This document shows positions 32,109-33,371 of a stretch of DNA of 37,107 nt, in pieces. The notes under the pieces are model-generated. The model had not been told where the DNA came from, ran no database searches, and was given only the letters and a program-made list of their open reading frames with translations. Both the position numbers and the translations under genes were made by a program. The stretch covers positions 1-37,107 of the forward strand of contig QIKW01000124.1 in the NCBI GenBank assembly GCA_003231975.1, given 5' to 3'. Source of the DNA: Acidimicrobiia bacterium. Lineage in GTDB: Bacteria; Actinomycetota; Acidimicrobiia; Acidimicrobiales; SZUA-35. Numbering within the stretch: the stretch's first letter is position 1; every line of letters starts with the position of its first letter.

Positions 32109-33371
32109 TCAGTTTTTGGGGTGGGTGTTGGCCAGCTTGAAACCCGCGGCCTCGGCGCTTTCGGCGGTGTCGAACCAGACTTCGGCCCCCGTTACGCCAT
32201 AGCTGCGGCTGTCTGGCCGGTGATACAGCATCGAGTCGGCGTTGCCCTTAATGGGAAAGCCCTTTGGTTGGGCATCGCCCGGCAGCGGGGCGTGGGACCC
32301 CTGGCCGAACGGGCCTGGGTTGGAGCCAGCCTGAGCTCCACCAGCTGGGGCAGCACCAGCAGCACCACCTGGTGTTGACGCGGCCGAGCCGGAAGGCTGG
32401 GCATCTGCGGGAACGCCAACTCCGGCGGCCACCAGTTCCCTTGCCACGTCTGGCTCGTCGTCGATACCATCCTCGCTGCCGTCGCCAAGGGCTTCGGCTC
32501 CGCTGACGATCTCCATGATCTCAGTGGTAATTGCATCTTGGCGGGCCCGGTTCAGGGCACGGCTGAGCTTGGTGATCAGCTCTTCTGCATTGTCGGTTGC
32601 TGCTTTCATTGCCCGCTGACGGTTGGCGTGCTCTGATGCTGATGCATCCAACAGGGCCGAGAACAACCGGGATTCCACATAGCGGGGCAGCAGAGACGCC
32701 AGCACACCCTCTGCCGATGGTTCAAACTCATACAACGCCTTGGCCATGGCGTCCGCCTCGCTTTGCTCGGCAACGGTTTGCATGGATTCGAGGGGCAGGA
32801 ATCGGCGAATAACCACTCGTTGGGTGCCCATCGAGATGAACTCTTGATAGGTAAGCACCACTTCGTCGACCGAACCGTCGGTGAACATCGTCCGCACCAA
32901 GGCGGCCACTTTGCGGGCGTCTTCATACACCGGCGAGTCGGTCATTCCCTCAAATGAGGCCTCGATCTCGTAATTCCTGAACTTGAAGTAGTCGTTAGCC
33001 TTCTTGCCAATGAGGATGAGGCGATACTTCTTGCCTTCAACCTGGGAAGCCATTACCTCGCGTTCGGTGGCCCTGATCACAGCCGAGTTGTAGGGCCCGG
33101 CCAGGCCACGATCGGAGGTGAGCACCACATAGGCGGTGGCCGCCGGTTTCTCAACCGTTCTGAGCAGCGGGTGATCGATGCCGGCGCCGCCTGCGGCAAG
33201 ATCTTGGATCACGGTTGTCATCTTGGCCGCATAGGGCCGCGCTGCGTTGGCCCGCTGCATTGCCTTCACAACCCGGGTGGCAGCAATCAGTTCCATGGCG
33301 CGGGTGATCTTCTTCGTGGACTGGACCGAGGTGATCCTCCGTCGGAGCGCTCGTTCCTGACCTCCAGGCAT
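32109..33371 (-). CDS. atpG: ATP synthase gamma subunit AtpG with long C-terminal extension
   Basis: The F1 rotor shaft subunit, unusually long at 420 residues (typical 285-320). The core, 1-296, is complete: [20 protein letters not shown] forms the N-terminal helix, then [17 protein letters not shown], and the C-terminal helix ends [19 protein letters not shown]. After it come an acidic stretch and an Ala/Gly/Pro/Ser-rich linker (about 297-368), and then a compact segment at 369-417 ([37 protein letters not shown]) that resembles the small 'sunset' domain known to me from actinobacterial protein tails; this match is from memory. In known F1 structures the gamma C-terminus lies inside the top of the alpha3-beta3 ring, so the extra part would have to emerge there. 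The gene abuts atpA with no spacer. Confidence 0.96.

Follow-up and report, generated by a model that had tools for sequence, protein, structure and literature searches.

A sunset domain on the C-terminal tail of an ATP synthase gamma subunit in Acidimicrobiales

The atp operon and the tail of AtpG

The window, the whole stretch of 37,107 nucleotides analysed here (contig QIKW01000124.1 of the Acidimicrobiia bacterium assembly GCA_003231975.1), carries an ATP synthase operon on its minus strand, running from atpB (truncated at the contig end) through atpE, atpF, atpH, atpA, atpG and atpD to atpC (Table 1). The atpG reading frame starts with ATG and remains open for 420 codons before its stop, which lies 37 bp from the start of atpD. 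Within the encoded protein, the Pfam ATP-synt profile (PF00231, E 3e-95) aligns to residues 7-295 and reaches its end there, and TIGR01146 matches the same residues with 305.7 bits against a cut-off of 194.45. The full-length family match, taken together with the operon context, identifies this protein as the F1 ATP synthase gamma subunit.

An initial annotation of the locus placed the end of the gamma core near residue 296 and reported an in-frame tail of about 125 residues at 32109-32483. This is borne out, as the Pfam and TIGR matches end at residue 295 and the predicted C-terminal helix ends at 296, leaving approximately 124 of the 420 residues beyond the core. The tail was described as an acidic, low-complexity linker leading to a compact end segment with a GADSMLYH-like core. 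The compact segment stands, but the motif is GNADSMLYH and the acidity of the linker is slight (D/E 16%), Ala, Gly and Pro being its main residues. In an AlphaFold2 model of the full-length subunit, the helix runs through residue 296 and pLDDT is below 50 for residues 297-385, although this model is shallow (10 sequences, mean pLDDT 65.8) and placement of the tail is beyond its reach.

Table 1. Features of the atp operon segment and of atpG in the window
Feature	Position	Strand	Basis
atp operon segment: atpC, atpD, atpG, atpA, atpH, atpF, atpE, partial atpB	30217..37107	-	identities, trees, composition
atpG, F1 gamma subunit with C-terminal tail, 420 aa	32109..33371	-	ORF, PF00231, TIGR01146
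canonical gamma core, residues 1-296	32484..33371	-	Pfam/TIGR matches to 295; predicted C-terminal helix 220-296
variable linker, residues 297-351, predicted disordered	32319..32483	-	low pLDDT, pN/pS 0.74
pre-sunset motif GPFGxGSHAPLPxxxxPxG, about residues 352-373	32253..32318	-	common to AtpG tails and many other sunset hosts
sunset domain, residues 374-413	32133..32252	-	NCBIfam NF051437; predicted compact fold

Identity and fold of the end domain

The resemblance of the end segment to the small sunset domain of actinobacterial protein tails, noted in the initial annotation, is confirmed. The NCBIfam sunset model NF051437 scores the whole of AtpG at 68.7 bits (cut-off 27, E 3.2e-19, model positions 1-40 of 42) and the isolated end of the protein at 72.7 bits. 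As in other sunset proteins, the domain closes a low-complexity tail on a larger host. Host-specific sunset variants are listed by NCBIfam for L4, L17, L20, S2 and ArfC, with none named for AtpG, which falls below the cut-offs of all of these (75.5 vs 385, 73.5 vs 280, 51.9 vs 375, 53.1 vs 710 and 64.7 vs 100, respectively) and matches them in its tail only. These variants (uL4, bL17, bL20, uS2 and ArfC) resemble AtpG in placing the domain last in a low-complexity tail and in having the pre-sunset GxGSHAPL motif. The AtpG case differs in that the host is an ATP synthase rotor subunit and in that its type of sunset sequence (YHRPDSRSY ... THP) clusters with those of membrane proteins, unlike the ribosomal tails.

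A 63-residue sunset module, modelled with AlphaFold2 from 71 sequences, is predicted to be compact (mean pLDDT 83) with the order beta-beta-beta-alpha. Eleven columns are invariant over these 71 sequences from many hosts: P12, K18, G19, N20, S23, H27, Y34, E40, F43, A49 and G53. Pfam has no sunset model and the closest echo there, which is non-significant, is the metal-binding domain of Ada. The N-terminal domains of Ada are also the only fold neighbours of the model, making up all of the top rows (Foldseek E 0.45-0.63, VIA-align Z 3.1-4.6). The echo in sequence is weak: PF02805 scores 12.3 bits for the window AtpG, below its gathering cut-off of 23, the best E value among the 71 sunset members is 0.0035, and a sequence profile of sunset run against the PDB gave no Ada match at E 10. 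The Ada domain (PF02805; 1U8B, 1ADN) binds zinc through four cysteines and belongs to a DNA-repair context, whereas the AtpG tail has neither. Since the tail is without cysteine in every AtpG member examined, an Ada-like zinc site is excluded, even were the scaffold related.

In the PDB, sunset occurs in a single sequence, ribosomal protein uL4 of Cutibacterium acnes (8CRX and relatives; profile E 6e-23). The uL4 extension is solvent-exposed and without cryo-EM density, and was considered likely to be disordered by its authors (PMC10085706). Invisibility by cryo-EM is what a folded domain on a flexible tether would lead one to expect. It is thus the same domain in an exposed and flexible setting, but on a ribosome. 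Literature searches found no structure, biochemistry or paper on any sunset domain.

Selection on the tail

Selection was assessed over 13 distinct AtpG genes (14 rows, of which one is a duplicate), leaving out that of 3_bin.6 (L164). The pN/pS values were 0.26 for the gamma core, 0.74 for the linker, 0.40 for the pre-sunset motif and 0.22 for the sunset domain, with mean amino-acid identities of 79%, 32%, 63% and 85%, respectively. The distance from core to sunset ranges from 46 to 77 residues in the same genes. Judged by these sequence comparisons, the sunset domain of AtpG is translated and under selection of about the same strength as that on the gamma core. The initial annotation had allowed for the loss of the true stop codon through sequencing error; this is excluded by the presence of a known domain in frame, the purifying selection upon it, the homologous tails elsewhere and the start of atpD so close behind. 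Frameshift and misassembly were rejected as origins of the tail along with the lost stop, given the known domain lying in frame under purifying selection.

Distribution and loss

The tailed AtpG architecture was found in 14 Acidimicrobiales species: that of the window, Dive96_bin3.113, bin80o, OFTM10, OFTM337, Ww174, BH8, DHS20C19, cluster2_bin.122, 3_bin.6, G436, G463, G465 and G478, with named records and genome handles paired by identical sequence. Ten of the 14 belong to one other family, f22, in which the AtpG query was matched in 48 of 51 genomes and the tail is present in 10 of these 48. When the tail was used as a query against representative genomes, the best four rows were the AtpG of other species, at 67-83% identity. 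No other AtpG of the window's own family has a tail, including that of the same-genus genome G001, and in a phylum-wide AtpG survey the window alone reached the sunset part among the matches listed. The possibility that the tail is absent from all close relatives, considered in the initial annotation, therefore holds inside the family and fails beyond it. The tailed AtpG is conserved yet rare, and adds a new host to a domain that is known but unexplained.

Two f22 genomes retain only terminal residues of the tail, G455 with ...LERAEGAGSRLANSHPKTDD and G464 with ...LANTHPSPES (L134, L132). These remnants represent in-frame losses and demonstrate that f22 had the tail ancestrally and can dispense with it.

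The open reading frame of 3_bin.6 (L164, 2-1183) opens as an ArgR-like fragment at the contig end and continues into AtpG with a uL4-like sunset. It is probably in part an assembly chimera, though the end of gamma and the sunset tail are contiguous.

Descent of the atp operon

In trees of AtpG and AtpD, the window falls outside the clade of its own family (support 100 and 97). Its nearest neighbours there are Ww174 and bin80o, both of which have a sunset-bearing AtpG. In trees of LigA and GlpX, which are encoded on the same contig, it is sister to G001 inside its own family (98-100), with 84.5% identity between the GlpX sequences. Identity to Ww174 exceeds that to G001 for atpC (64 vs 44%), atpD (87 vs 80%), atpG (79 vs 66%), atpA (83 vs 75%) and atpH (59 vs 47%). 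By trees and identities, the operon segment is of foreign descent, with the evidence strongest for atpC to atpH. Native and foreign sequence meet at the junction of glpX and atpC, genes that share four bases in the window; in G001 they are separated by about 1.4 kb containing a hydrolase-like gene.

The tetranucleotide correlation of the atp part with other parts of its own genome is 0.89-0.92, against 0.49-0.73 with G001, Ww174, bin80o or G022 (0.49-0.64 for Ww174 and bin80o). There is no second AtpG in the window's genome. Apparently the operon was replaced in place by transfer, long enough ago for its composition to adjust, and the sunset tail has been retained on the transferred motor. The transfer accounts for the tail being missing in close relatives of the window. 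Vertical inheritance of the tail within the family was rejected, there being no other tailed AtpG in it, and a contaminant contig was ruled out by the flanking LigA and GlpX, sister to those of the same-genus genome. Copying of the tail from the genome's own multi-sunset gene (73% identity) was dropped as an origin, since AtpG in other species has tails of higher identity (76-83%).

Other sunset hosts and the relationships of the modules

In the window's genome, sunset is also found on uL22 and in two copies on a protein that is truncated at a contig edge (C38). Relatives of the latter combine a single membrane helix at the N-terminus with a coiled coil and with sunset in two or three copies. 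These multi-sunset membrane proteins of Acidimicrobiales (C38, G001:C59, G022:C67) are without a gamma core but have an ending, SPTHP or ANTHP, that resembles that of AtpG, and the modules of C38 are the closest to the AtpG module in its own genome (73% and 61% identity). Other actinobacterial hosts are uL4, bL17, uL22, uS2, uS3, uS17, NusA, NuoJ and ArfC. An aquaporin, a membrane Fe-S oxidoreductase and a cytochrome-oxidase-like fragment add to these; the records for NuoJ (Marmoricola), for the aquaporin-like channel and for the fragment, which resembles cytochrome-oxidase subunit I and bears sunset at its end, are L184, L302 and L304.

The sunset tree has few alignment columns and its inner order is weak. 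Of the 75 modules included, 12 of the 14 AtpG tails cluster with 14 multi-sunset modules, the Fe-S oxidoreductase of Ww174 and the aquaporin (support 97/83), and a larger quick tree supports a similar AtpG and membrane set at 99. This group is separate from most of the ribosomal tails; the cytochrome-oxidase-like case and NuoJ are not firmly inside it. Of the two remaining AtpG tails, that of cluster2_bin.122 is unplaced and that of 3_bin.6 seems to stem from a fusion of its own, with a module of the uL4 type. Sunset has probably been put on the end of the gamma shaft more than once. No multi-sunset scaffold is found in the f22 genomes with a tailed AtpG, so this protein cannot be an obligate partner of the tail.

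The tails of NusA (L065) and uL22 (L066) in genome G022 match almost completely across some 80 residues, pointing to recent copying from one gene to the other.

A possible role for the tail

The tip of the gamma shaft is commonly regarded as a terminal piece of the motor that lies buried. A selected, folded domain at this place means that the enzyme must tolerate it, and provides a natural test of whether the crown passes a tether and whether the rotor tip can serve in docking. The gamma C-terminus sits at the bearing, close to the top of F1 (PMC3536650), and the tail has to pass the crown to reach solvent, in agreement with the geometry given in the initial annotation. The minimum spacing of 46 residues would, from its length, be ample for leaving the crown. 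When the C-terminal helix of gamma was cross-linked to the bearing, rotation was intact and the helix swivelled (PMC3536650). An outside partner could therefore hold a domain at the tip without stalling the motor. The yeast enzyme with GFP on an extended gamma C-terminus is fully functional (PMC6039829), and the rotor counterpart in the V-ATPase assembles and works when bearing GFP (PMC3155378). As with the tailed AtpG, gamma-GFP and Vma8-GFP place a foreign folded domain on the shaft C-terminus of a functional enzyme, but these are laboratory constructs, whereas the AtpG tail is natural and under selection.

Given the architecture observed, with its conservation, recurrence, loss and transfer, it is proposed, at a probability of about one half, that a flexible tether on gamma carries the folded sunset domain, which docks to a putative partner. 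The tether would exit via the N-terminal crown of alpha3-beta3, so displaying sunset at the membrane-distal top of F1. There it would dock to a putative partner also used by other sunset proteins of these bacteria, and this would keep the ATP synthase close to scaffolds or other enzymes of the membrane. The rotor would go on turning, with the single C-terminal helix of gamma acting as a swivel. Weighing against docking are the loss of the tail within f22, its restriction to a single member of the window's family, and that no partner was found. The presence of the same module on many unrelated proteins makes it more likely that the ligand is a partner they have in common than that it belongs to F1, and such a partner would be the simplest reason for conservation across unrelated hosts.

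The strongest rival to docking, though on balance unlikely, is hitchhiking: sunset would be a mobile end domain that folds well, moves from one gene end to another in the same genome and is no more than tolerated on AtpG. The many unrelated hosts would be expected of such a domain, copying is suggested by NusA and uL22 ending almost alike in one genome, as do uL4 and uL22 in another (L209), and the AtpG tail is patchy and repeatedly lost. However, sunset is under strong purifying selection with none such on the linker, its polar residues are invariant across hosts, and the tail was retained after transfer into a new lineage.

An intramolecular regulator is decidedly less probable. Here sunset would bind the alpha N-termini or delta at the crown and act as a brake or ratchet on the rotor, much as the initial annotation had suggested, but nothing was found pointing there. 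The same domain is carried by proteins that never meet F1, and, because the helix swivels even when cross-linked, a tether there would be a poor brake (PMC3536650). Its location at the bearing below the crown (PMC3536650) would suit such a role, for which there is otherwise the conservation of the tail alone. Post-translational removal, with the tail acting, if at all, as a separate small protein, is very improbable. The long disordered linker would be accessible to proteases but has no conserved cleavage motif (32% mean identity), and a domain conserved in this way is not what would be expected of a discarded part. Least credible is an assembly artefact joining a foreign atp fragment to a native one: one false join would suffice, as the foreign part spans atpC to the contig end in a genome of 275 contigs, but the tetranucleotide profile agrees with that genome, which has a single AtpG and an estimated contamination of 0.17%, and tailed AtpG is present in other species regardless.

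The docking of a tethered sunset domain could be extended, rather doubtfully, to a reading of sunset as an address tag for a common receptor. There would be a ribosomal class and a membrane and bioenergetic class, the latter tying ATP synthase by its rotor shaft, together with oxidoreductases, channels and membrane scaffolds, into one organised patch in these Acidimicrobiales. If true, this would be the first case, to our knowledge, of a rotor shaft serving as an attachment point that organises ATP synthase. The widening of the sunset hosts to respiratory and membrane machinery gives a handle for finding the ligand.

Additional observations

The membrane Fe-S oxidoreductase of Ww174 (L153, 1547-4486) has an internal sunset followed by a second end domain, of a kind shown by NCBIfam on L21, S2, NuoE and the phasin PhaH. 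This second domain is another portable tail common to ribosomal and respiratory proteins. A uS17 (L313, 1069-1746) has its sunset at the N-terminus, and the domain is thus not limited to C-termini. In uL22 of the family (L006, L007, L008, L009, L013, L014), a DSDxDGxxNAxD-like motif, resembling a calcium-binding loop, is often found ahead of sunset.

In the atp operon of the window, atpF (35555-36283, minus strand; b subunit, 242 aa) encodes a signal-peptide-like N-terminal stretch and some 60-70 residues with two cysteines ahead of the usual membrane helix.

Family f22 also has small proteins (L292, L296, L097 and similar) with one hydrophobic helix and a two-cysteine variant of sunset, CPxxHPIKGN ... 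ERCYA. A short open reading frame of that size with a sunset match is present in all ten of the tailed f22 genomes, the sequences having been read for some of these.
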